Positions 14,630 through 26,878 of a stretch of 40,024 nucleotides of DNA are shown here, piece after piece. Within the stretch, counting starts at the first letter, position 1, and the number at the start of each line of letters is the position of its first letter. The notes under the pieces were generated by a model. That model was not told where the DNA came from. It saw only the letters and a list, made by a program, of their open reading frames with translations, and did not search any database. The position numbers were made by a program, and so were the translations under genes. Location: positions 1-40,024 of the forward strand of contig JACPQW010000039.1 in NCBI GenBank assembly GCA_016190285.1, in the 5' to 3' direction. The stretch is from Candidatus Methylomirabilis oxygeniifera. GTDB lineage: Bacteria; Methylomirabilota; Methylomirabilia; Methylomirabilales; Methylomirabilaceae.

Positions 14630-15271
14630 ATGAGCCTCCGCGTGAACGAAATCTTCTACAGTATCCAGGGAGAATCGACCTATGCCGGTCGGCCCTGTGT
14701 CTTTGTTCGCCTGACCGGGTGTAATCTTCGGTGCCGGTGGTGCGATACGACATATGCGTTCCACGAGGGCGAACAACGCTCGATCGAGCAGGTGCTGGAA
14801 CAGGTGCGAGGCTATAAGTGCCCGTTGGTCGAGATTACCGGGGGGGAGCCGCTGTTGCAGGGAGAGGTGTATCCTCTGATTCATCGCTTGCTCCTTGAGG
14901 GGTACGAAGTCCTGATCGAAACAGGGGGAAGCCTCAGCATCGATCGCCTCGACCCCAGGGTGGTCAAGATCCTGGACCTCAAGGCTCCTGGAAGTGAGAT
15001 GGACCCTCACAACAATCTTGAGAACCTCCAGCATCTCGACAGGAAGGATCAGATCAAATTTGTCGTGGCGGATCGTCGTGACTACGAGTGGGCCAGACGA
15101 GTGACGGCGGAGCATGCCCTGGCCGAAAAGGCCCACATCCTCTTCTCGCCGGTTCTCGGCGAACTCCATCCGAGGGAGCTGGCTGAATGGATCTTGACGG
15201 ACCGACTGAATGTCAGGCTTCAGATTCAGCTTCATAAGTATTTGTGGGATCCGAACCGGCGGGGGGTGTAG
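14630..15271 (+). CDS. queE: 7-carboxy-7-deazaguanine synthase
   Basis: [37 protein letters not shown] radical SAM CxxxCxxC; adjacent to queC. Confidence 0.93.
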
Positions 15272-15993
15272 TGAACCCGTCTGCGTGCAGCGCACAGGCA
15301 GGCAAGCCTGCCGTGGTCCTGTTGAGCGGCGGGATCGACTCCGCAACGGCGGCCGCGTTGGCAAAGGCCAAGGGGTATCAGCTTCATGCCCTGACCTGTC
15401 GCTACGGCCAGCGTCACGCGCGCGAGGTGGAAAGCGCGAAGCGGATCGCAGTGGCCCTCGGCGCGTCGCAGCACCTGATCCTTGAACTTGATCTTCGCCG
15501 GATCGGAGGTTCGGCGCTGACTGCTGAAATCCCGGTGCCGAAGGGTCGCGAGATGAAAGAGATCGGCTCCGGTATCCCCATTACATACGTTCCCGCCCGC
15601 AATACCATCTTTCTCTCCTATGCGCTGGCCTGGGCCGAGGTGATCGGTTCGGAAGATATCGTGCTCGGGGTGAACGCCATCGACTACAGCGGGTATCCGG
15701 ATTGTCGGCCTGAATATATCGCGGCCTTCGAGCAGATGGCGAATCTGGCGACCCGCGCCGGCGCTGAAGGCAGATCCGCGCTCACCATTTACACTCCGCT
15801 GATCCACCTGTCCAAGGCCGAGATCATACGCCAGGGCGCTGCCCTTGGGATCGATTTTCGGCTTACCTGGAGCTGTTACGACCCGACCCCGGATGGACGG
15901 CCCTGCCGCGCCTGCGACAGTTGTATGCTAAGGGAGAAAGGCTTCGCCGAAGCCGGCATCCCCGACCCCGGCCTTGGAGCGGCGAAGGGCTAG
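15271..15993 (+). CDS. queC: 7-cyano-7-deazaguanine synthase
   Basis: [23 protein letters not shown]-loop and C-terminal zinc cysteines [23 protein letters not shown] start overlaps queE TAG by 1 nt. Confidence 0.92.
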
Positions 15994-16035
15994 GATGAGC
16001 CGGACACACGTGTGACCCATGAAGGAGGAACGACC

Positions 16036-16548
16036 ATGAGCGACGATGTGAACGCCGCAGGTAAACACGGTATGACAGCCTTGATGAGAGCGGCTCAGGA
16101 CGGCTCTCCCAAGGCCGTGCAGGCGCTGATTGCGGCGGGCGCGAATGTGAACGCCAGAGATGAATATGGCTGGACGGCCTTGATGAGAGCGTCTCTAAGA
16201 GGCCATCTCGAGGTCGTACAAGCGCTGATTGCGGCGGGCGCGTGGGTACACGTCAAATCCGACGCGGGCTGGACGGCCTTGATGAGAGCGTCCCTGGCCG
16301 GCCATCTCGAGGTCGTACAAGCGCTGCTTGCGCAGGGCGTGGATGTGAACGCCACGCAGGATAATGGCGCAACGGCCTTGCTGTGGGCGTCTCAGGAAGG
16401 CCATTGCGAGGTCGTACAAGCGCTGCTCGCGGCGGGCGCGGATGTGCACGCCAAAACCAACAATGGCATCACGGCCTTGAAGATCGCGTTTAATAGGAGC
16501 GAGAACGAGGTCGTACGGCTCCTCAAGGAAGCCGGGGCAACGGAATAG
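16036..16548 (+). CDS. ankyrin repeat protein
   Basis: Consecutive 33-aa ankyrin repeats ([25 protein letters not shown]); SD GAAGGAGG upstream of ATG 16036. Confidence 0.92.
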
Positions 16549-16578: not shown

Positions 16579-16609
16579 AAGGGCTTACGACAACGCGTCG
16601 TAGGCCCTT
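16579..16609 (+). terminator. hairpin after the ankyrin gene, possible terminator
   Basis: 13-bp stem (one G-T) AAGGGCTTACGAC / GTCGTAGGCCCTT with 5-nt loop, weakly T-rich tail GTTGTCTG. Confidence 0.45.
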
Positions 16610-16627
16610 GTTGTCTGTGCTAACAGA

Positions 16628-17020
16628 CCGCAACACCATCTTTCTCTCCTGTGCGCTGGCCTGGGCGGAGGTGATCGATTCGGAAGATATCGTGCTCGGG
16701 GTGAACGCCATCGACTACAGCGGGTATCCCGATTGTCGTCCTGAGTATATTGCGGCCTTCGAGCACATGGCGAATCTGGCGACGCGGGCCAGCGTAGAAG
16801 ACAGATCCACACTCACCATTCACATTCCGCTGATCCCCACTTGTCCAAGGCCGAGATCATCCGGCAAGGCGCTGCCCTTGGGGTCGATTTCCATCTCACC
16901 TGGAGCTGCTACGACCCAACCCCGGACGGACGGCCCTGTCGCGCCTGCGACAGTTGCATGCTGAGGAAGAAAGGCTTTGGCGAAGCCGGCATCCCCGACC
17001 CCGGTCCTATTGCCTTGTAA
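16628..17020 (+). pseudogene. partial, frameshifted second copy of the queC 3' half
   Basis: Closely matches 15598-15993 ([53 protein letters not shown]...); +2 nt (CC) shift near 16835; similarity continues in the shifted frame to TAA 17018. Confidence 0.9.
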
Positions 17021-17311
17021 GGTGCCTGATGTTCACCATCCGGCTTTCGGCAAGCAATGTCTTCGCACCCCGCACATCCCCTGTAGGACCTGCCCCGACA
17101 ACTACCTACCTGAGCGTCTGACACAAAAAACAGACGCGTGCTGATACCTCTTCGCTCGGTGAGATGCTAGCGTTGCTCTTAGCAACGAGGGCGACACATT
17201 CACGGGGCGCTTCTGAAAGTCGGGGGGGTGCCGGAAGAGCCCATTCTTTAAATTCTCACAACACATTCCTATCACGCTCTGCATCCCGTGGTCGAAGAAT
17301 GGAGATCTGGG

Positions 17312-17962
17312 ATGACCCCTTATCGCGTGATCGTGGCTGCCGATCACAGTTTGTTCCGCAGCGGTCTGAGAAGCCTTCTGGAAAAGGACCCGGCTATTCA
17401 CATCGTCGAGGAGACGGGGAACGGCCTTGAACTCCTCAGCCTTTTGGAAAGGGTGACCACCGATCTGGTGATCCTCGACATCTCGCTGCCCGGTCTGCGG
17501 GGCATCGAAGCGATCCACGAAATCCAAAAAGGCTTTCCCGGCGTGGGAGTATTGGTCCTCACCATGCATAATGAGAGAGCATTCCTCCAGCAGGCCCTCG
17601 CGGCCGGCGCGCAGGGGTACCTGCTTAAAGACAACACCGCCGCGGATCTCTTTTCTGCCATCGAGAGAATCAGACAAGGGAACATTTACATCTCCCAAGC
17701 TCTTTCTGAGGGGATGGACCCTGAATGTATAACGGCCCTCCAATCGGATTCGCGGCCCTTCGCTCAGCCGGAGCGATTGACGATCCGCGAGAAAGAGGTG
17801 TTGAAACTGATTGTGGAAGGGAAAACAAGCAAGGAGATCGGCAACCTGCTCTTTATCAGCTTTCGCACGGTGAATCGCCACCGGTCCAGTATCATGCGGA
17901 AGCTGCACGTCAACAAGAATACCGACCTCGTGAAATACGCCATCCAGCACGGCTATATTTAA
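17312..17962 (+). CDS. NarL/FixJ-type LuxR-family response regulator
   Basis: Receiver (VILDISLPGLRGIEAI...LLKD) plus LTIREKEVLKLIVEGKTSKEIGNLLFISFRTVNRHRSSIMRKL HTH. Confidence 0.93.
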   Translation: MTPYRVIVAADHSLFRSGLRSLLEKDPAIHIVEETGNGLELLSLLERVTTDLVILDISLPGLRGIEAIHEIQKGFPGVGVLVLTMHNERAFLQQALAAGAQGYLLKDNTAADLFSAIERIRQGNIYISQALSEGMDPECITALQSDSRPFAQPERLTIREKEVLKLIVEGKTSKEIGNLLFISFRTVNRHRSSIMRKLHVNKNTDLVKYAIQHGYI

Positions 17963-18128
17963 GCGCTGCCCCGTAACCCGGTTCACGGTACCTGGGATAT
18001 TTCCCTCCCGAGTTGACAAATGGATATTTATATTCATGGCATTCTGCACACTCAACGCTTATGGTCACAATAGGAGAGGCAATGTCAAAGTGAGTTGACC
18101 TGTGCGAAGTAGACTCCCGATCATGCGA

Positions 18129-18480
18129 TCACGCAACCTGACGCTTTTGTATGCGCATCTTCCCACTGAGTTCCTTGTGCAATATATGGCGCAACAGTGG
18201 AAGGGCGAGGACACTTTTGAGCCAGTCAAGCCGCAGCGTGATGTCGGGAAGGGCTGCGACACACCCTCTCCGTTTCTACTCAACACTCCGCCACCGATCG
18301 ACCGTGTCGGTGCGCTGTTCGATAAATGCGCTGACGGATTCAAGACAATTGGTCGTCTTCAGGCTCATGCCCAGGGCCGAGCAGACGCCAAGGCGGTGGA
18401 GCGTGAGTGGCGCCTCGAACCCCTCACCGGGACTTGCCGCCGTCGATCCGCTCAGCATTCGGGTTGCCCTCTTCATGAAG
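18129..18480 (-). pseudogene. IS256/mutator-type transposase C-terminal remnant with in-frame stop
   Basis: Minus strand reads ...TLHRLGVCSALGMSLKTTNCLESVSAFIEQRTDTVDRWRSVE*KRRGCVAALPDITLRLDWLKSVLALPLLRHILHKEL, the IS256 C-terminal pattern, interrupted by TAG at 18276-18278. Confidence 0.75.
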
Positions 18481-18578
18481 CGACTCCTTTGTGTGCGGGG
18501 TACTCGGTTAGCGGTGCTGACCGCCCTACCATCAGGGAGTCGCGTCGCTTGTTCAACTAAGAATGGCACACCTTCCAC

Positions 18579-18628
18579 AAAGAGGGCCGTCTCTTGTTTA
18601 GTGAAAAGAGACGGCCCTCTTTTTTCTA
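18579..18628 (+). terminator. strong rho-independent terminator
   Basis: Perfect 17-bp stem AAAGAGGGCCGTCTCTT / AAGAGACGGCCCTCTTT, 10-nt loop, then a T-tract. Confidence 0.8.
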
Positions 18629-18805
18629 CGGGTGACCCGCGAGACCTTTGGGGCTCTTATCCCAAACATGGCCGGGAATGCCATGCTCCGAAGGTCACTG
18701 GTTGGCGGAACGAGGGAGCGGTGCACTCCGCGTATCACCGGCTGACAATGAAGCACGGCGGAATTGCCAGTCTGAGTTGGACCGCTTGTTGGCAAACATC
18801 CCCAA

Positions 18806-19105
18806 TCAATGGACCTCGGCGTACACCTTGACCTCTCTCTCAAGACGGTTACCCAGCTCATCCTCCTCGACATCAAGGTCATACTGAACCTGGAGCCCAA
18901 TCCAGAACTCAGGTGATGTGCCAAAATAGCGGGCCAAACGCAGAGCCGTATTGGCCGTCACACCCCGCTTGCCCAAGATGATCTCGTTGATGCGGCGTGG
19001 GTCAACCCCAATATCGAGCGCCAGCCGATGCTGACTGAGACCCAGCAGTTTGAGGAACTCCTCCTGCAGGACTTCTCCGGGGTGGATCGGTGCCATCTTC
19101 TGTTT
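18806..19105 (-). CDS. higA: HigA family antitoxin (XRE HTH)
   Basis: MAPIHPGEVLQEEFLKLLGLSQHRLALDIGVDPRRINEIILGKRGVTANTALRLARYFGTSPEFWIGLQ. Confidence 0.9.
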   Translation of the reverse strand, partial: KQKMAPIHPGEVLQEEFLKLLGLSQHRLALDIGVDPRRINEIILGKRGVTANTALRLARYFGTSPEFWIGLQVQYDLDVEEDELGNRLEREVKVYAEVH

Positions 19106-19123
19106 TACCATCCGATGCAACTC

Positions 19124-19403
19124 CTAATGATAGTCTGTGATCTCCACCTCAAAGGCATCGCTCCCTCGCCAGACGAAACAAATCCGCCATTGATCATTGA
19201 TACGAATCGAAGCTGCCCCGTACGATTGCCCTTGAGCTTTTCCAAATGATTCCCGGAAGGGCCAGAAGATCTGGTAACGAACGCGCGTTGTTCAGCATCC
19301 TCAGCTTCCGCAAGGCCGTCCGTTGAATGTCTTGCTGGAACTTCTTCGAATAAAGACGCTCATACACCTTCTCGGTCTCTTTGTCCTTGAAGGACTTGAT
19401 CAT
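19124..19403 (-). pseudogene. higB: HigB/RelE toxin gene disrupted by two apparent single-base deletions
   Basis: MIKSFKDKETEKVYERLYSKKFQQDIQRTALRKLRML... in one frame, (N)HLEKLKGNRTG in a second, ASIRINDQWRICFVWRGSDAFEVEITDYH* in a third. Confidence 0.85.
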
Positions 19404-19577
19404 GATAAGGAAATATAGCGACTCTCGCTAGGCGTCAAGCACTATACGGGGATGTCACTCTGGGCAGCACGCTGTAGATTACCACCACGAATCTGCACTA
19501 TCCATCCCACAATTAGGGCTACCGTGGATAGACGGGCTGTGAGCGATGAAAAAGCAATGATGGGGGTAAGCGGAAAT

Positions 19578-19600
19578 TGGTGACCCGTCGCGGACTCGAA
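19578..19600. repeat. degenerate tRNA-Lys 3'-end copy (possible old att site)
   Basis: TGGTGACCCGTCGCGGACTCGAA differs from the 23-bp att repeat by 3 central bases. Confidence 0.45.
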
Positions 19601-19739
19601 TCAAGTATTTGGCACTCCAGAACCTCGATTTGACCATCCCCTTCTCAGGAAGGGTGGCGGTCTGATGGAGCAATTTCGCCTTAATGCAGTAAGGTCAGAC
19701 GCTCGCCTATTCTAGCGCAGTGCGTTACTTGGTTTATTG

Positions 19740-20156
19740 TCAGTTCATCAGCATGCGCTGCGACTGCAGCCGAGCACTGGGACCTGCCAGTCTTCTCTGT
19801 GCATGTGCATGCGATTGTTTCCGGCTCGCCGATTTGGAGTCCGGTTCGTCTTCGGCGATACCGGACAGAGCGACCGGTGGGCGATCAGGGAATTCCGCGA
19901 CAAGAGATAGCGTTCCGCCCATCGCTTCAACGGTTTTCCGCAAGGTAGAAATCATCAGATCGGTACGTTTCTCGATCTTAGAAATGCCGTCCTGCCCGAT
20001 GCCAAGCTTCTTAGCCATGCGGACCTGCGTGAGCTTGCGTGCGCGCCGGAGTTCCTGTAACGTCAACTCCTCCGCGATGAGCTGGGCCGCGCGGGCTGCG
20101 ATCTTCTTGCGACGGGTCGGGCTTAGTTCCTTCCTTATGCGTTCGAGATGTGTCAC
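19740..20156 (-). CDS. XRE-family antitoxin (HigA-like)
   Basis: LTLQELRRARKLTQVRMAKKLGIGQDGISKIEKRTDLMISTLRKTVEAMGGTLSLVAEFPD; GTG start 4 bp after the full-length toxin stop. Confidence 0.88.
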   Translation of the reverse strand: MTHLERIRKELSPTRRKKIAARAAQLIAEELTLQELRRARKLTQVRMAKKLGIGQDGISKIEKRTDLMISTLRKTVEAMGGTLSLVAEFPDRPPVALSGIAEDEPDSKSASRKQSHAHAQRRLAGPSARLQSQRMLMN

Positions 20157-20159
20157 GGC

Positions 20160-20549
20160 TTACCCCCTTTCCTTTTTCTTCTGCCTTTTGAGTGTAGCCA
20201 GATGTGCATCAAAACGCGCATCGGCCTTGTCGATCAGTTAACGGTAGAACCGCTTGTCACTCACGCGGGACTTATCTCCGGCTGCCAGAATAATAGCCTT
20301 GCGGTATGGATCGAACGCAAATGCCACACGCCAGATACCATTAGCGGCATCGAACCGCAATTCCTTCATATGTGCATGACGTGAACCCTTCAGGGTGTCT
20401 GCATGGGGCCGCCCGAGCTGCGGGCCGAACTGTTCAAGCAGTTCGATGTGGGCCAGTAGTTCGTCCTGCACGTCCTTATGCAGATCGCGGTACTCGGGGG
20501 CGAAATCGTCGTGGAGATCAGCTTCCCACCTCACGTATGCAGTATGCAC
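20160..20549 (-). pseudogene. RelE/HigB (Gp49-like) toxin gene with premature in-frame stop
   Basis: VRWEADLHDDFAPEYRDLHKDVQDELLAHIELLEQFGPQLGRPHADTLKGSRHAHMKELRFDAANGIWRVAFAFDPYRKAIILAAGDKSRVSDKRFYR*LIDKADARFDAHLATLKRQKKKERG*; TAA at 20238-20240, original-looking end at 20160. Confidence 0.85.
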
Positions 20550-20664
20550 TATAATAACTATTTCGTCAAGTCCGCGTACGGCACTATCGTCATCGGCGTG
20601 AAGGACAAAACGAAAGAGGTGATCGGCATCGCTGGTCGCGCAGGGCCTCGGCGACAGGCATGTA

Positions 20665-20687
20665 TGGTGACCCGTTCGGGACTCGAA
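20665..20687. repeat. distal att core repeat
   Basis: 23-bp exact match to the tRNA-Lys 3' end at 26803-26825. Confidence 0.92.
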
Positions 20688-20698
20688 TCACCCCCCTC

Positions 20699-21793
20699 TT
20701 AGAAACCAATAGATTCAAGGAGTTGCGTGACGGCCATTTTCTCAGTGCTACTCTGGGTGCTACTTCCATCGCCAGTTTCGGGGTCAGCCAGCCGTTCGAC
20801 CGCCGTTCGAAGGTGCGCGTCTTCGACCTTGAGATACCGCCGGGTGGTCCGGAGGTCCCGATGTCGGGCCAGGGCCATCAGGGTCGTCGCGCTCACATGG
20901 GGGGCCAGTCTCGATATGAATGTATCTCGCAAGCAGTGAAACGTCACGCCTTCCAAGCCTGCTCGCTTCGCATACTCTACGAAACGGGTCGATACTCCCT
21001 CGGGAATGTCCGGAAACACCAGGGGGCCGGTTCGCTCCAGAGAGGTCAGCAGCCGTCGGGCCGTCTGGTTTAATGGCAGCACTTCACGCTTGCCGCTCTT
21101 GGGCCGGGTGACGGTCAGGGTCCCTTGCTCCAAGTCGGTATCCTTCCAGGTTTGCGCCCTCAGCTCGCCCAACCGAAGACCGGTATGGATCGCAAACCGC
21201 GTGAAGGCATGGTAGCGCGTCGGAAGCACACTCAACAGCCGTGCCTCGTCATCCGCGCTCAACGGTCGGGGGTGTTCGTCCGGCTCTTTGAGAGGGTCCG
21301 TATCGGCCAGGGGGTTCAGGGTAGCCAGCTTCCAGGTCCTCGCCTTCGTGAACAGGTGCCCGAGAACGGTACGCTCTCGATTGATCGTGGCCGGGGCCGC
21401 ACCCTCACCCTTCCGGCGTTCGATGTAGCCCTCCAGCGCCTCACTGTCGATGTCGGTCAACGGCTTCGGGCCGAACGCCGTCACCAAGTGCTTCATGGCG
21501 CATTGCCGGAACACCACAGACCGCGGCCGCTCACGCTCCGCCCATGCCAGGTACCGGCTCGCGACATCTTGGAACAGGACCGGCTTCTCCGCCTCTCGCT
21601 GAGCCTTGGCCTCGGTCAAGCAGAATCCTTCGAGCTTGACTTGAAGCTTGCGCTTCTGGTAGTAGTCGCGGGCCAGTCCCTTCGCCGTGCCGATCTTTTC
21701 CCGGTGCCGATGCCCATACGGGCACACCCAGAGAATCCACCAGACGCCCTCACGTCGGAACAACCCTCGATCTACGCCACCGTTACGCGCCAT
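20699..21793 (-). CDS. tyrosine recombinase/integrase
   Basis: HTGLRLGELRAQTW, TFHCLRDTFISRLA, ALARHRDLRTTRRYLKV give the R...HxxR...H...Y set. Confidence 0.95.
   Translation of the reverse strand: MARNGGVDRGLFRREGVWWILWVCPYGHRHREKIGTAKGLARDYYQKRKLQVKLEGFCLTEAKAQREAEKPVLFQDVASRYLAWAERERPRSVVFRQCAMKHLVTAFGPKPLTDIDSEALEGYIERRKGEGAAPATINRERTVLGHLFTKARTWKLATLNPLADTDPLKEPDEHPRPLSADDEARLLSVLPTRYHAFTRFAIHTGLRLGELRAQTWKDTDLEQGTLTVTRPKSGKREVLPLNQTARRLLTSLERTGPLVFPDIPEGVSTRFVEYAKRAGLEGVTFHCLRDTFISRLAPHVSATTLMALARHRDLRTTRRYLKVEDAHLRTAVERLADPETGDGSSTQSSTEKMAVTQLLESIGF
20743..20767. repeat. candidate integrase arm-type site (left)
   Basis: CAGTGCTACTCTGGGTGCTACTTCC with paired GTGCTACT, 12-bp period; related copy at 26669-26693. 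Confidence 0.55.
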
Positions 21794-21806
21794 AGCCTCT
21801 CCGTCG

Positions 21807-21986
21807 TTACCGCTTACTTGGGGGGTTCAGGTAGGCCGTCAACGCCTCGATAATAATCGCTCGCAGACTGCTTCGGGTCTCAATCGCTCGATGCTGGCAA
21901 GCCTTCCAGAGGTCTTCAGGGAGGGTCAGACTCGTTCTCACCATTGCGGGCTCCTCTGTGTTGGGTTTCTGCTTCGATGTCTTCAT
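21807..21986 (-). CDS. small ribbon-helix-helix-like protein (59 aa)
   Basis: MKTSKQKPNTEEPAMVRTSLTLPEDLWKACQHRAIETRSSLRAIIIEALTAYLNPPSKR*, read directly from the minus strand; absent from the ORF track (below its size cut-off). Confidence 0.8.
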   Translation of the reverse strand: MKTSKQKPNTEEPAMVRTSLTLPEDLWKACQHRAIETRSSLRAIIIEALTAYLNPPSKR

Positions 21987-21995
21987 GCTTGTATG

Positions 21996-22400
21996 CTATA
22001 GCGTATCAGGTACGCTGTCAAGAGGAAAATCGGGGGGTGACACGTTGCTTCCTTCTCCCTCATCCTCGGGTACTCCAACTCTTGCCACGATCTTCTGTTT
22101 GAATCGGTCATACTGCCTGGTCTTCGGTCGGCTCTGTCTTCGCTTTTCCTCAAGCTCCCACTTGTGCCGTACCCATTCATCAATCAGGGTGGGGGTCGTG
22201 GCGAGACCGTGCCCAAGGTGTGCACACCGGAGCGGGTTTTCAACGTCCAGGCGCCATCTGTAGAGCGTTCGGGGCGATACCCCCAGCGCCGCACAGATCG
22301 TTTTCGCGCCGGTGAGTACATACCGCCCCTTGAAGGCGAGCGCCGCCTCAATCTTCGCCTCGATCCGTGCCAAGTGCTCCCGTATCGGATCGTCATCCAT
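21996..22400 (-). CDS. HTH protein, possible element regulator or small-terminase-like
   Basis: GAKTICAALGVSPRTLYRWRLDVENP HTH-like segment. Confidence 0.65.
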   Translation of the reverse strand: MDDDPIREHLARIEAKIEAALAFKGRYVLTGAKTICAALGVSPRTLYRWRLDVENPLRCAHLGHGLATTPTLIDEWVRHKWELEEKRRQSRPKTRQYDRFKQKIVARVGVPEDEGEGSNVSPPDFPLDSVPDTL

Positions 22401-23082
22401 GTCGCTCGCCCTCCATTTCGATGCTGACGGCGAAATTGTGCGTCGCCGGTAGCTCCGGGTCGAAACGTACTCGCCTGGGTCGGATCGTCAGCCCGAAGCG
22501 CTCCTGTAGGGTGCTATGCCAGAGACTTAACTCCGCCGCGTGCACTCGAACGGTCGTGTACCGGGTCAGCATCTCTTCGACTTCCTTCTGAAGGGTGCGC
22601 TGCTCCTGCTTGAAGAGCACATCCGCATAGCGCTCGATCTCGGCTTCCACGATGGGCCGTACCCGTTCCCAATCCCTCTCAGCCGTCCTCAGCCCGTCAT
22701 CAATCCGTACAAGTGCTTCCCGGTAGGTCTCCGCTTCAATTTTGCGGATATGGTACCGTGCACGGTCTCGGTCATAGTCCAGGCTCTCAAGCTCGCCCGC
22801 TGTCAGCTTGGCGTGCAACGCCTCACGTTCGCGTTCGAGTGCGGCTATCGTGCTTGTCCAACCGTCCCGCACGCTCCGGGCCTCGGTGAAACTCCGGTGC
22901 AGATCCGCAAGCCAGGGGAAGACCGCCTCTCTGAAATCCTTTGGGTCGTAATCAACCGGCCAGGGTCGGGCCAAGCCTCGCAACCGCGCTTGCACGATGG
23001 ACACGGGTCCCGATTGTCTTGTCAGCTCATCGCTCAGGTCCGCTTGCCGTTGTCTCAATCGTTCACTCAGATTGTCTCGCAT
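22393..23082 (-). CDS. hypothetical coiled-coil-rich protein
   Basis: 229 aa ORF, highly charged helical composition, overlaps the next gene by 8 bp within the operon. Confidence 0.65.
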   Translation of the reverse strand: MRDNLSERLRQRQADLSDELTRQSGPVSIVQARLRGLARPWPVDYDPKDFREAVFPWLADLHRSFTEARSVRDGWTSTIAALEREREALHAKLTAGELESLDYDRDRARYHIRKIEAETYREALVRIDDGLRTAERDWERVRPIVEAEIERYADVLFKQEQRTLQKEVEEMLTRYTTVRVHAAELSLWHSTLQERFGLTIRPRRVRFDPELPATHNFAVSIEMEGERHG

Positions 23083-23086
23083 CTTC

Positions 23087-23470
23087 TCATCCCCTCCCGC
23101 TCAGATGCAGTTCGTCTTTCCCGCAGAATGGACACCGGGCTTTCTCCTGATACCAGCGCTTCGCCGCCTCTTCGAGCGTTCGCCAGGCTGTGTCTGCTCC
23201 GACGTGCTGCTCCAGATGGTCGATCTCTCGATGAAGCGCCTTGAAGGTCTCCAGAGGGTCGGTCTCGGGTTTGCTCCAGTATTTCCGGTACAGGTCGGCC
23301 AGGGTACGGCCAGGTTGCAGAAGTCGCAGGAGGTCTTCCTTGTGCTGCACGATCTTCGCCTTGAGTTCCGGCGTCACCTTGTCTCTCGGACCGAAGGCCA
23401 GTTTATCGCCTCTCGGGTGGAGCGTTACCCCTTGGTTCTGTAGCTCGCTGAGTAGGGCCGTCGGAGTCAT
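23087..23470 (-). CDS. TubC N-terminal docking-domain-like protein with C-terminal zinc-ribbon-like motif
   Basis: TALLSELQNQGVTLHPRGDKLAFGPRDKVTPELKAKIVQHKEDLLRLL and C-terminal CPFCGKDELHLSG. Confidence 0.65.
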   Translation of the reverse strand: MTPTALLSELQNQGVTLHPRGDKLAFGPRDKVTPELKAKIVQHKEDLLRLLQPGRTLADLYRKYWSKPETDPLETFKALHREIDHLEQHVGADTAWRTLEEAAKRWYQEKARCPFCGKDELHLSGRG

Positions 23471-23473
23471 CCG

Positions 23474-25501
23474 TCACACCTCCTCAAAGAGGGTTTCAGA
23501 AGGGGAAATACTGCGTCCCAAGATTTCCACCGGGTCCCCGTTTTTATCAAAAGCATGGGAACGAGAATACACTGAATCGTTTTCGCTACTTACGCCGTTT
23601 TCGGATGCTTGTTTTGCTTGTTCCCGCATATATATGGGAACAAGGGAACAAGAATCTGAAACCGCATAGCGATAGGGGTCGCCCTTACCCCCCTTGCCGG
23701 ACCTGGAAAGCTTCCCCGCCGCTACCAATTGCCGGAGTGCTCGGCGCTTGACTGCGAGCCGCGCTTCCACCGCGTCATTAATCTCCGGCTCGGTCACCGG
23801 CTCCCGCTGGGTCCTCAGAAACTCCAGAATCTTGTCAGCCACTTCTTGCCCCTCCACCTCTTGCCGGGACGGGCCAGCCGACACCCTCCGCGTGTCAGGG
23901 TCCAGGGTGAGCGTCACTTCTTCGAGGTCTTCGCCGTATCGCTGAATACTTCGCAACGTTCGATACTGGTCTCTCCGGGTCAGAAGCAACGCTGTGTCAA
24001 CGCTCCCGAAGATCGCCGTACTGCCAAGAATGCCGTCACCGTCGCCGCTCCCCTTCTTACTCGAATGATGCACAAGCAGCACATGGGCTCCCGTTTGCCG
24101 GGCCAGGGTGAGCAGGGGCTCCAGGGCCGCCGTCACCTGAGTGTAATCGTTCCCATCTTTCACGCGCACAAACCGGAAGAGGGGGTCAACCACAATCAAG
24201 ACCGGCTGATGAGCCTCCGCCGCCTTGCGAAGCTGGGCCAGGCCATCCGCCGGAGATGGTTCCATGAAGAGATACAGGTGATCCTCCCCCGTCGCGCCCA
24301 TCGCCTCGAAGTGCCGCCGGAGTTCCGCCCGCTTTTCCTCCAGCGCCAGATAGAAGACTGTCCCTTGGCTAGTCTGACACCCCAGCCAGGACTCGCCTTG
24401 AGCCACCGCCAACGCCAAGCATCGCGCCAGGGTGCTCTTCCCCACCTTGGGCTTGGCCGCCAGGATGGACAGGCCGCCGCTTGGCAAACGCTCCTCCACC
24501 AACCAGGACACGACTTCCTCGGGCTCCGCCAACAAGTCACCCAACCGCGTCAAGGGAAGGCCGCCGCTCTCCTGGGTGTGGGCCGACTCTTGCCGATCCG
24601 CCTTCCCGTTCGCATGATGGTTTCCCACGTAAAACTCCGTCCGGCCACTCAGGGCCTTGGTAACCACAGCTTCGAGATAGGTCTGTCCGTCGCCGTAGTG
24701 TCGTTTATCCCACTTCTCCCGCGCAAGGCCGGAGCTTCGCATCAGGGTTTCCAATTTCATCGCATCGGGGCCGGTCCAGAAGGCGAGCAGAGAGGCTAAC
24801 GCCATGTCCGCCTCACTTGCGGAGGGGTAATCAGTCGTGTCGCCATTCCACAGCCGCTGGAGCTTGTCGCCGTTCGCTGCGTCAAACGCCCGCGCCAGCA
24901 GCTTATCGTCCGTCGCGTCCAGGCCGCTGCCGTTCGTATTAGATTTCGTGTCACGCTGCTGAGAGAAGTAGGTGGCGAGCAACCAGTCTACAGCTTCTTG
25001 CCGCTCCTCGATCATCGAGGGATATGCTGACATGCACTTACCGGTGATGGTGAAGTACCGCCACCGGTCATAGACCTCAATGGGTCCCTTTTTCCGGCCT
25101 CCGCTTGGGAGGGTAGCCTTCATGATGAGATGTTGACCTTGGCCGCTTGGGGACAGCTCGCAATAGCTGTCGAATCGCCTCAAGATGGTCTGTCGGTCCT
25201 CCTCTAGTAATTCCTTGTCCAGGTCAATCCCCGTATAGGGATCATCTTCCGCGAATACGTAGCCGACGCCATCGAAGCCGCCGCGCTCGTACAGCCTCCA
25301 CGCTGCTTCGAATGACAGCCAGGTCGCAGGCTCCGTGCTGCTCGCCTTGCGGCCCACCGCGTAGTACGGGACCTTGGTAGGCTTGGGTTCGCCCTCCCGA
25401 AGCTCAAGTCGCCATACCACCCACTGCGAGCGAGCCCTCAGCTCTCCGGGGATGGTGTCGCGCAATGGGGCTAGGATCGGAGCTGTCGCCGTCCCGCTCA
25501 T
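23474..25501 (-). CDS. NrS-1-polymerase-like primase domain fused to RepA/AAA_25-type helicase ATPase
   Basis: RARSQWVVWRLE...GVGYVFAEDDPYTGIDLD...ELSPSGQGQHLIMKA primase-like region; LSILAAKPKVGKSTLARCLALAVAQG Walker A; VLIVVDPLFRF; HVLLVHHSSKKGSGDGDGILGSTAI. Confidence 0.85.
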   Translation of the reverse strand: MSGTATAPILAPLRDTIPGELRARSQWVVWRLELREGEPKPTKVPYYAVGRKASSTEPATWLSFEAAWRLYERGGFDGVGYVFAEDDPYTGIDLDKELLEEDRQTILRRFDSYCELSPSGQGQHLIMKATLPSGGRKKGPIEVYDRWRYFTITGKCMSAYPSMIEERQEAVDWLLATYFSQQRDTKSNTNGSGLDATDDKLLARAFDAANGDKLQRLWNGDTTDYPSASEADMALASLLAFWTGPDAMKLETLMRSSGLAREKWDKRHYGDGQTYLEAVVTKALSGRTEFYVGNHHANGKADRQESAHTQESGGLPLTRLGDLLAEPEEVVSWLVEERLPSGGLSILAAKPKVGKSTLARCLALAVAQGESWLGCQTSQGTVFYLALEEKRAELRRHFEAMGATGEDHLYLFMEPSPADGLAQLRKAAEAHQPVLIVVDPLFRFVRVKDGNDYTQVTAALEPLLTLARQTGAHVLLVHHSSKKGSGDGDGILGSTAIFGSVDTALLLTRRDQYRTLRSIQRYGEDLEEVTLTLDPDTRRVSAGPSRQEVEGQEVADKILEFLRTQREPVTEPEINDAVEARLAVKRRALRQLVAAGKLSRSGKGGKGDPYRYAVSDSCSLVPIYMREQAKQASENGVSSENDSVYSRSHAFDKNGDPVEILGRSISPSETLFEEV

Positions 25502-25704
25502 CGCCGCCTCTCGCCGGGAAACCCTTCGCGCCCGCGTTCCAACAGCCGGAGCAGATCCGATTCGAGGAACACGATCCTTCCGCCGATCCGCCGCGCCTGC
25601 AACCCGAGACGGATTCGAAACCGACGATCGCTCAACGAGCGGGGGGATACTGCCAACATTTCGCTTGCCTCTCCGACGCTTAAGGCTCTTTCACGCTCAC
25701 GCAT
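25498..25704 (-). CDS. excisionase/AlpA-like helix-turn-helix protein
   Basis: ALSVGEASEMLAVSPRSLSDRRFRIRLGLQARRIGGRIVFLESDLLRLLERG; 4-bp overlap with the primase-helicase start. Confidence 0.75.
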   Translation of the reverse strand: MRERERALSVGEASEMLAVSPRSLSDRRFRIRLGLQARRIGGRIVFLESDLLRLLERGREGFPGERRR

Positions 25705-25856
25705 ACGCCCTTCTCCTTACGCCGCCCGTCGCGCATCAGTGCGCGACATTGTGCGTCCTAGCGTGTAAGGTAACGGGGCCATGGCGCTAGTGTAAATCAG
25801 TGACGTTCAGCGAGAGTTTGTGGGCTGTTTTTGCGCGAAGAGTTACGGTAAGAGTG

Positions 25857-26495
25857 TTACGGTTCGGGGGGGAAGAATTTCCGGTAGGTCGCCTCATACT
25901 CAGCAGGCCAGTCAACCTTGTGCAGGCGAACACGGAGAAGTTCTGCAGGATCGTCTTTCCCTCGGCTCGAACCGCTTTGAAGACGCAAGACAGAGGTACC
26001 TGTTGCGGTTTCGGCCAGGGCCAGCATCTCCTTATAGTGTGGCCGCCTCAGCCGCTCTCGAAGCTCCTGTTCGAGCACTTTAAGAATTACCGTCTCCTCA
26101 AGCGGGCCTCGCCATCCGCGCTTGCCATGAAACCCATGTGCCTTGAGAAAATTCCGCATGGCCGCATCGGATCGGCGAACCTGCCGAGACGCTTCTTGTG
26201 TGGCTCCCACAGTCTTCTTGAGCTTGCGGATCGAGCTTGTCGGGTTCTTCGGAAAGTAGGGCAACAAGCCAGCACAGGTACCTTCAAGCTGTATGAGTTT
26301 CTTCTTGAAGTCTTGGGCCAGTGCAGGGTACTGAGGCTTCGGAATACGCGCCTTCTTTGACTCAGGGGTCAGATACCACAGCAGGGCGATCACGTTGTCA
26401 GGATTGCCGCCTTTCTTGGTGTAGCGCGTGAAGAAGTCCTCGCACTTACAGAGTAGGCGAGCGTGAAACTCCAGGTAGGGGCGCGTTGTCGGCAT
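25857..26495 (-). CDS. hypothetical protein, tRNA-proximal gene of the element
   Basis: 212 aa ORF with GGAGGAG upstream of ATG; no motif recognised. Confidence 0.7.
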   Translation of the reverse strand: MPTTRPYLEFHARLLCKCEDFFTRYTKKGGNPDNVIALLWYLTPESKKARIPKPQYPALAQDFKKKLIQLEGTCAGLLPYFPKNPTSSIRKLKKTVGATQEASRQVRRSDAAMRNFLKAHGFHGKRGWRGPLEETVILKVLEQELRERLRRPHYKEMLALAETATGTSVLRLQSGSSRGKDDPAELLRVRLHKVDWPAEYEATYRKFFPPEP

Positions 26496-26668
26496 GGCTC
26501 CTCCGTCGAGCGTCCGAAGAGGTCCCCGGTCAGGTCGGTCGGAAGCCGACTCTTCGGGCCGTCGCCCTAGACCGGGGAGAAAAATTGTATGTCAGTGTAG
26601 CGAATATATGAGGGGGGGTGGGGAAGCAATCCGAAGACCGTACGCCCCTCGCTTTTGCGCCTCAAATT

Positions 26669-26693
26669 CAGTGCTACTCCAGGTGCTACTCCC
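26669..26693. repeat. candidate integrase arm-type site (right)
   Basis: CAGTGCTACTCCAGGTGCTACTCCC, 3 mismatches to 20743-20767, same paired GTGCTACT arrangement. Confidence 0.55.
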
Positions 26694-26802
26694 GCGTCTG
26701 AAATGGTCGTTTTCCGTCGTACTCTAGCATGGTTCGTGCCAAGCGTATAAGTGTACGTGAATACAGGATTGTTCAGCGTTTTTAGGCAGATAGGAAGAGG
26801 GG

Positions 26803-26878
26803 TGGTGACCCGTTCGGGACTCGAACCCGAGACTCCCTGCTTAAAAGGCAGGAGCTCTGCCAACTGAGCTAACGGGTC
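26803..26878 (-). tRNA. tRNA-Lys (anticodon TTT), CCA encoded
   Basis: GACCCGTTAGCTCAGTTGGCAGAGCTCCTGCCTTTTAAGCAGGGAGTCTCGGGTTCGAGTCCCGAACGGGTCACCA folds as a complete cloverleaf. Confidence 0.97.

Follow-up and report, generated by a model that had tools for sequence, protein, structure and literature searches.

The window analysed here, a stretch of 40,024 nucleotides from Candidatus Methylomirabilis oxygeniifera (contig JACPQW010000039.1), contains a 6.1-kb element inserted at the 3' end of a tRNA-Lys gene. The organism belongs to the Methylomirabilota (NC10), the phylum of nitrite-dependent methane oxidisers. The element is bounded by two exact copies of the 23-bp attachment (att) repeat TTCGAGTCCCGAACGGGTCACCA, which lie 6,138 bp apart. 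Sequence shuffles gave an expectation of 0 for such a repeat, and no exact copy beyond these two was found in the 2.24-Mb, 84% complete genome. Both coordinates and the spacing agree with an initial annotation of this DNA, made from the letters alone. The repeat search yielded an additional third copy with three mismatches.

Eight genes lie between the exact copies, all of them open and on the minus strand, as had been annotated. With an intact integrase gene and two identical copies of att, the element looks complete. The claim that it encodes its own primase-helicase was borne out by matches to PF22763 and PF13481. A scan of genome contigs returned only distant, partial matches to this primase, in Sporomusa, Oscillochloris and an Armatimonadetes metagenome-assembled genome. 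The structure model of the 212-aa protein was uninformative (predicted local distance difference test score, pLDDT, 42). The 229-aa protein was modelled as helices (pLDDT 71), for which no structural match was obtained at E ≤ 0.001. Scans with Pfam, NCBIfam and PHROGs, a check suggested in the initial annotation, revealed no capsid, structural, terminase or lysis genes and no relaxase or conjugation genes in the element, and no element gene had a PHROG head, tail or lysis match at a credible E value. A match of the 134-aa helix-turn-helix (HTH) protein to a terminase small subunit (phrog_2538, E 0.026) was dropped in favour of the better excisionase match phrog_66. PADLOC matches to LmuB, mad1, mad8 and NsnC were rejected as defence genes, being weak or partial.

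Table 1. Features of the tRNA-Lys locus, with positions in the window
Feature	Coordinates	Strand	Evidence
tRNA-Lys(TTT), target of the integration and left intact by it	26803..26878	-	ARAGORN; Rfam tRNA
att copy 1, from T-arm through CCA (attL core)	26803..26825	-	23-bp repeat, within tRNA-Lys
Putative arm site, AGTAGCAC twice with period 12, at +134 bp relative to the centre of the core	26668..26693	-	repeat analysis
int-alpA RNA (RF02996), three-way junction and covarying pseudoknot	26511..26577	-	50.2 bits, gathering 35.8, E 1.9e-9
Shine-Dalgarno and possible sequestering hairpin just before start codon	26496..26516	-	sequence comparison; inference
212-aa orphan protein, variable slot after RNA	25857..26495	-	no family matched
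AlpA-like HTH_17, 68 aa	25498..25704	-	PF12728 E 6e-7, above cut-off
NrS-1-type primase-polymerase (PrimPol) fused to AAA_25 helicase, 675 aa	23474..25501	-	PF22763 E 7e-22, PF13481 E 6e-38; phrog_1829 E 1.5e-81
TubC_N domain and C-terminal CxxC zinc-ribbon-like motif, 127 aa	23087..23470	-	PF18563 E 2.8e-12
Conserved helical protein, 229 aa	22393..23082	-	68% identical homologue in G008 element; ~23-25% in G007
Second excisionase/HTH-like protein, 134 aa	21996..22400	-	phrog_66 E 3e-5; PF13384 below cut-off
Ribbon-helix-helix/Arc-like repressor, 59 aa	21807..21986	-	phrog_6506 E 7e-5; 67% homologue in G014
Tyrosine integrase (int), 364 aa	20699..21793	-	PF00589 E 9.5e-20; phrog_1 E 5e-55
Putative arm site, again AGTAGCAC twice, at -78 bp relative to the centre of the core and within the 3' coding end of int	20742..20767	-	repeat analysis
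att copy 2 (attR core), exact	20665..20687	-	23-bp repeat
Gp49/HigB-like toxin, between att copies 2 and 3	20238..20549	-	PF05973 E 2e-18; 91% homologue after second tRNA-Lys in G004
XRE antitoxin partner	19740..20156	-	PF01381 E 1e-7; 89% homologue in G004
att copy 3, 3 mismatches, end of older insertion	19578..19600	-	repeat search and relatives' loci

The tRNA-Lys locus was compared among relatives, as the initial annotation had proposed (genomes are numbered G, loci L). In three genomes of the same genus (G003, G001 and G008) the tRNA-Lys 3' end is followed by queC within ~10-150 bp and the site is empty. In the window, queC lies at 15244-15993, and homology of a second, partial copy (16608-17004) stops near 17004. 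Because tRNA-Lys adjoins queC in the relatives and queC homology ends there, the interval from ~17005 to 26802 (~9.8 kb) is inserted DNA throughout. The element had been described as precisely delimited, which holds for the exact att repeats; the locus as a whole carries two att-bounded units in tandem, and the 6,138-bp unit is the tRNA-adjoining copy within ~9.8 kb of accreted DNA. Other insertions at the same tRNA-Lys in the genus measure 3.5 kb (G010), 5.6 kb (G007), several kb (G013 and G006) and ~69 kb (G004), and the site is an integration hotspot. An att site that prophages never use is a mark of Gram-negative PICIs (phage-inducible chromosomal islands); the insertions sharing this tRNA-Lys may or may not include prophages. 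The ~69-kb island (G004, contig 8) lies between two complete tRNA-Lys genes (L045 315-390 and L046 18763-18838), the second of which is followed by the toxin-antitoxin pair of the window (89-91% identity) and then by queC. A separate observation concerns the tRNA-Lys genes of G008 and G014 (L049 and L050), one empty and one occupied, with matching coordinates of the purA flank. They differ in a single T-stem pair, C-G versus T-A, as if part of the tRNA gene had been swapped by integration.

The ends of the element were further analysed for integrase arm sites. The 8-bp motif AGTAGCAC is the only 8-mer that is doubled at 12-bp spacing at two places, a pattern reached in 0 of 500 first-order Markov simulations. 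Sister elements carry the motif ACCGGCAC at +133/-79 (G014), +133 (tRNA-SeC element of the window genome, G000), -79 (G022) and +137/-105 (G030), and ATGTACAC occurs near +135 in the tRNA-Lys element of G005. The arm positions are thus retained among sister elements and the motif differs. In helper-embedded phage-inducible chromosomal islands (PICIs), a doubled motif is reported at distances of 81 ± 2 and 132 ± 2 bp, measured from the middle of attP (PMC10111431). For the P4 record NC_001609 we computed paired 12-bp arm repeats 134 and 75 bp from the core. These references define a pattern of co-oriented doubled arms, one ~75-81 bp and the other 132-134 bp away on opposite sides. The putative arm sites of the window attP, at -78 and +134 bp, lie at near-identical distances and have the same geometry relative to the core as those of helper-embedded PICIs and P4.

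With the TubC and integrase proteins as queries, a family of sister elements was identified across the phylum, and the same gene order was recovered at other tRNA genes, as the initial annotation had proposed to check. Together with the insertions located by their int-alpA RNA, the sister elements measure 5.4-10.7 kb. The tRNA-SeC element of G014 carries the same gene set between 21-bp repeats 6,437 bp apart. A second, decayed element of 5,446 bp, its integrase gene broken by stops, occupies tRNA-SeC in the window genome (G000, contig 153). Further elements were found at tRNA-Glu in G008 and G005 (47- and 45-bp repeats), at tRNA-Phe in G007 (9,360 bp) and at tRNA-Thr in G041 (45-bp repeat). 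A second tRNA-Lys element, in G005, is 94% identical to that of the window in the 100 bp adjoining att. Insertions bounded by a tRNA and marked by the int-alpA RNA were located at tRNA-Met in G030 (6,978 bp), tRNA-Val in G046 (10,732 bp) and, as a 1.7-kb remnant, tRNA-Cys in G019. The integrases fall into two groups: in the window-like group int lies at the far end and the att repeats are 21-23 bp, and in the other int adjoins the tRNA and the repeats are 45-47 bp. The primase slot between AlpA and TubC also varies, holding the NrS-1 type in the window, a PF09250 Prim-Pol in G005, a DUF3854 type in G014 and, in G007, the same helicase (55%) joined to an N-terminal part that is unrelated. The short start motif M(S/T)(G/A)xAT is kept in most members, as judged by eye. 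Replication and integrase modules are thus swapped around a constant frame of AlpA, TubC and RNA. The statement that virion genes are missing is true for the window element but does not extend to all its relatives: the tRNA-Phe element of G007 contains a lone XkdF-type head-maturation protease (L041 16322-16723; PF14550, E 1.8e-19), and the closest relative of the helicase half outside the genus (G035; L055 13048-14850) has a tape-measure-like gene (phrog_339, E 3e-9) ~2 kb away.

The int-alpA RNA of the window matches RF02996 over the full model. The RNA was also detected in the tRNA-Lys element of G005 and the tRNA-SeC elements of G014 and G000, and across the phylum 12 of 95 genomes gave a match (11 above cut-off), compared with 0 of 14 controls. 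Wherever RNA and integrase share a contig, they are on the same strand. The sister loci that were scanned gave neither a C4 nor an isrK match above threshold. A BLAST search with the RF02996 consensus matched 216 of 5,426 E. coli genomes. The three loci inspected all lie between yicC and dinD, with the order int, RNA, a variable gene of ~300 aa, HTH, accessory genes and a TOPRIM/DUF927 or DUF5906 primase, and these elements also contain C4 and isrK RNAs. These E. coli elements share gene types with EcCIMP1 and have the RNA in common with the window. A circular Klebsiella pneumoniae plasmid record of 19,229 bp (CP031370.2; L146) exhibits the same order of int, RNA and variable gene and resembles a PICI with int-alpA RNA in its excised, circular form.

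To describe the RNA further, 19 sequences from two phyla were compared. The loop of hairpin 3 pairs with the 3' tail to form a pseudoknot, for which at least seven different sequence pairs were seen, such as UCCGA/UCGGA, CCUGA/UCAGG, CCCUGG/CCAGGG and CCUUA/UAAGG. Mean uninterrupted Watson-Crick pairing was 5.3 bp compared with 4.0 bp for permuted tails, a value reached in 0 of 2,000 permutations, which ignore the relatedness of the sequences. RNAfold z-scores for single leaders were modest (-0.9 to -2.6), and the case for the structure is based on the Rfam model and covariation. RF02996 is typed as gene/sRNA (small RNA) in Rfam, whereas here and in E. coli 15 of the 19 loci have an open frame that begins 15-23 nt beyond the RNA (in Eco2, one of the 15, by the annotated start), a position more like that of a cis leader. 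The Shine-Dalgarno sequence can often be paired, by eye, with the stretch directly after the pseudoknot strand, which reads CUCC in most NC10 leaders. The proteins encoded right after the RNA are mostly unrelated among loci. Since a conserved RNA precedes changing genes, a cis regulator would fit better than a free small RNA, and the position before a differing gene suggests a cis translational switch. We tentatively raise the possibility, at rather low confidence, that the int-alpA RNA is a pseudoknotted cis-acting leader of satellite elements common to two phyla and not a free small RNA.

The organisation of the element was compared with that of known satellites. Like PICIs, it combines an integrase (PF00589), a replication module (PrimPol-AAA_25) and a master regulator (HTH_17/AlpA) and contains no phage structural or lytic genes. 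Gram-negative PICIs and EcCIMP1 likewise have int, an AlpA-type regulator and a primase in one direction and use a tRNA att site (PMC11773190, PMC6092414, PMC10111431), and EcCIMP1 also has no capsid or terminase. From PICIs, which measure 10-20 kb, the window element differs in its 6.1 kb, in the attR-side int and in the NrS-1-type PrimPol, and no Bro-zone, Icd-like, SSB or late genes were recognised in it. The phage-inducible chromosomal minimalist islands (PICMIs) of Vibrionaceae are alike in having few genes, int, alpA, iolg between these two, a primase and no capsid remodelling (PMC10803314). They sit beside fis and encode a DUF3987/DUF5906 primase, in contrast to tRNA-Lys and the PF22763/PF13481 PrimPol of the window. 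P4 shares the core with doubled 12-bp arm repeats, int, an AlpA/Vis-type protein and a primase-helicase, but has Sid, Psu and delta, which were not found among the element genes. Both EcCIMP1 and P4 contain C4 and isrK RNAs and no int-alpA RNA above threshold. The tie to elements of proven helper dependence is therefore gene content, not the RNA. The initial annotation had proposed a satellite or integrative plasmid of a class perhaps undescribed in this lineage. The first part is a fair reading; that the class is undescribed is not supported in that form, since the order int, RNA, variable gene, AlpA, primase and the geometry of the attP arms match the described PICIs, PICMIs and P4 (PMC10111431, PMC11773190, PMC10803314). 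The element thus appears to be of a known kind, a PICI/PICMI-like satellite, with novelty in its size, primase and int position relative to PICIs and in its site and primase relative to PICMIs.

Taken together, we regard the element as probably a minimal PICI-like phage satellite, for which a life cycle like that of EcCIMP1 and PICMIs may be inferred by analogy. The integrase would recombine a circular attP, comprising the 23-bp core and the doubled arm sites, with the tRNA-Lys 3' end and restore the tRNA. On induction, the AlpA-like protein, the second HTH protein and possibly the 212-aa protein would drive excision, and the PrimPol-helicase would replicate the excised circle. If it acts as the 5' leader of the first gene, the int-alpA RNA would probably gate translation via its pseudoknot and the Shine-Dalgarno hairpin. 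Because the element has no capsid, terminase or relaxase, spread in the particles of a helper phage is proposed. AlpA, when expressed by itself, triggers excision or replication of PICMI115 and EcCICFT073, int is needed for excision or transfer, and the primase is needed for normal replication (PMC6092414, PMC10803314). Excision of PICMI115 further requires iolg, which lies between int and alpA and is not conserved (PMC10803314). In its circular form the window element has the order int, attP, int-alpA RNA, 212-aa gene, AlpA and primase, which places the 212-aa protein where iolg stands. EcCIMP1, a PICI without capsid or terminase, is induced and mobilised by its helper and circularises only in its presence (PMC11773190).

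Several points weigh against a satellite. The length of 6,138 bp is below the usual 12-15 kb of PICIs, the PrimPol is not of the DUF3987/DUF5906 type, and int lies at the attR end and not beside attL. The element showed neither a terminase small subunit nor a gene for capsid remodelling, and no cos/pac site was recognised in it. The link to satellites is one of gene order, RNA and arm geometry, not of close protein homology, and induction, packaging and a helper are proposed features. A Mu-like prophage contig in the same genome (L159; G000, contig 38), with a large terminase and Mu-like transposition genes (open reading frames assigned by eye), is a candidate helper only by its presence, which shows that a phage exists. 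The element could instead be an integrative plasmid, self-replicating with its own integrase and spread by transformation, vesicles or the conjugation of another element without a helper phage. The PrimPol-helicase would suit such a plasmid; its N-terminal half resembles haloarchaeal plasmid proteins (39-46% over about half the query), archaeo-eukaryotic primases are described as common on integrated plasmids (PMC5862659), and the Klebsiella relative is filed as a plasmid. However, no relaxase, partition gene or origin was identified in the element, the arm geometry and the int-alpA/AlpA core point to satellites, and relatives contain head protease or tape-measure genes. We consider an integrative plasmid unlikely.

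Origin from a prophage by loss of the structural genes is disfavoured and judged improbable. The N-terminus of the primase is indeed common to many phages (754 records, none covering 80%), and the helicase half lies beside a tape-measure-like gene in G035. Yet elements at different tRNAs repeat this compact order and have conserved ends, which argues for a lineage and not for one-off decay, and the genes are open and co-directional with an intact int and identical att copies. It is more improbable still that the element is a genomic island moved by conjugation (an integrative mobilisable element) or an inert cargo island. The tRNA-Lys hotspot does host large islands, such as that in G004, and toxin-antitoxin genes, but neither a relaxase nor a cargo gene was found in the element, where nearly every gene serves recombination, regulation or replication.

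The part of the window from queC to att copy 2 showed additional features. At 19578-19680, att copy 3 adjoins on its inner side a conserved sequence of 80-85 bp, which occurs in four Methylomirabilis genomes (twice in G006). Its other copies lie at L042 15179-15270, L047 3350-3436 and L039 1700-1792 and 6640-6730, and every copy abuts a copy of the tRNA-Lys 3' end. This sequence appears to be the end of a separate, older family of tRNA-Lys insertions. An ankyrin-repeat gene (16012-16548) is located between queC and the partial queC copy; in G006 the ankyrin region is present without the second queC fragment. At 18806-19410, a HigA-like antitoxin gene lies beside a seemingly broken toxin frame, which looks like a second toxin-antitoxin remnant within the inserted DNA.

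In the literature searched, no description of a satellite was found for this phylum, and a 2016 virome study of a Methylomirabilis enrichment detected no lysogeny (PMC5099504). A gene of the ammonia/particulate methane monooxygenase family (PF02461) is present in 10 of 15 genomes of the genus; the 84% complete genome of the window is not among them. With this element, the range of PICI/PICMI-like elements would apparently come to include Methylomirabilota, and its 6 kb may represent a minimal parts list for satellites of this sort. The hypothesis on the int-alpA RNA stands out as the most interesting point. An unexplained Rfam RNA gains a testable location, structure and hypothesis.

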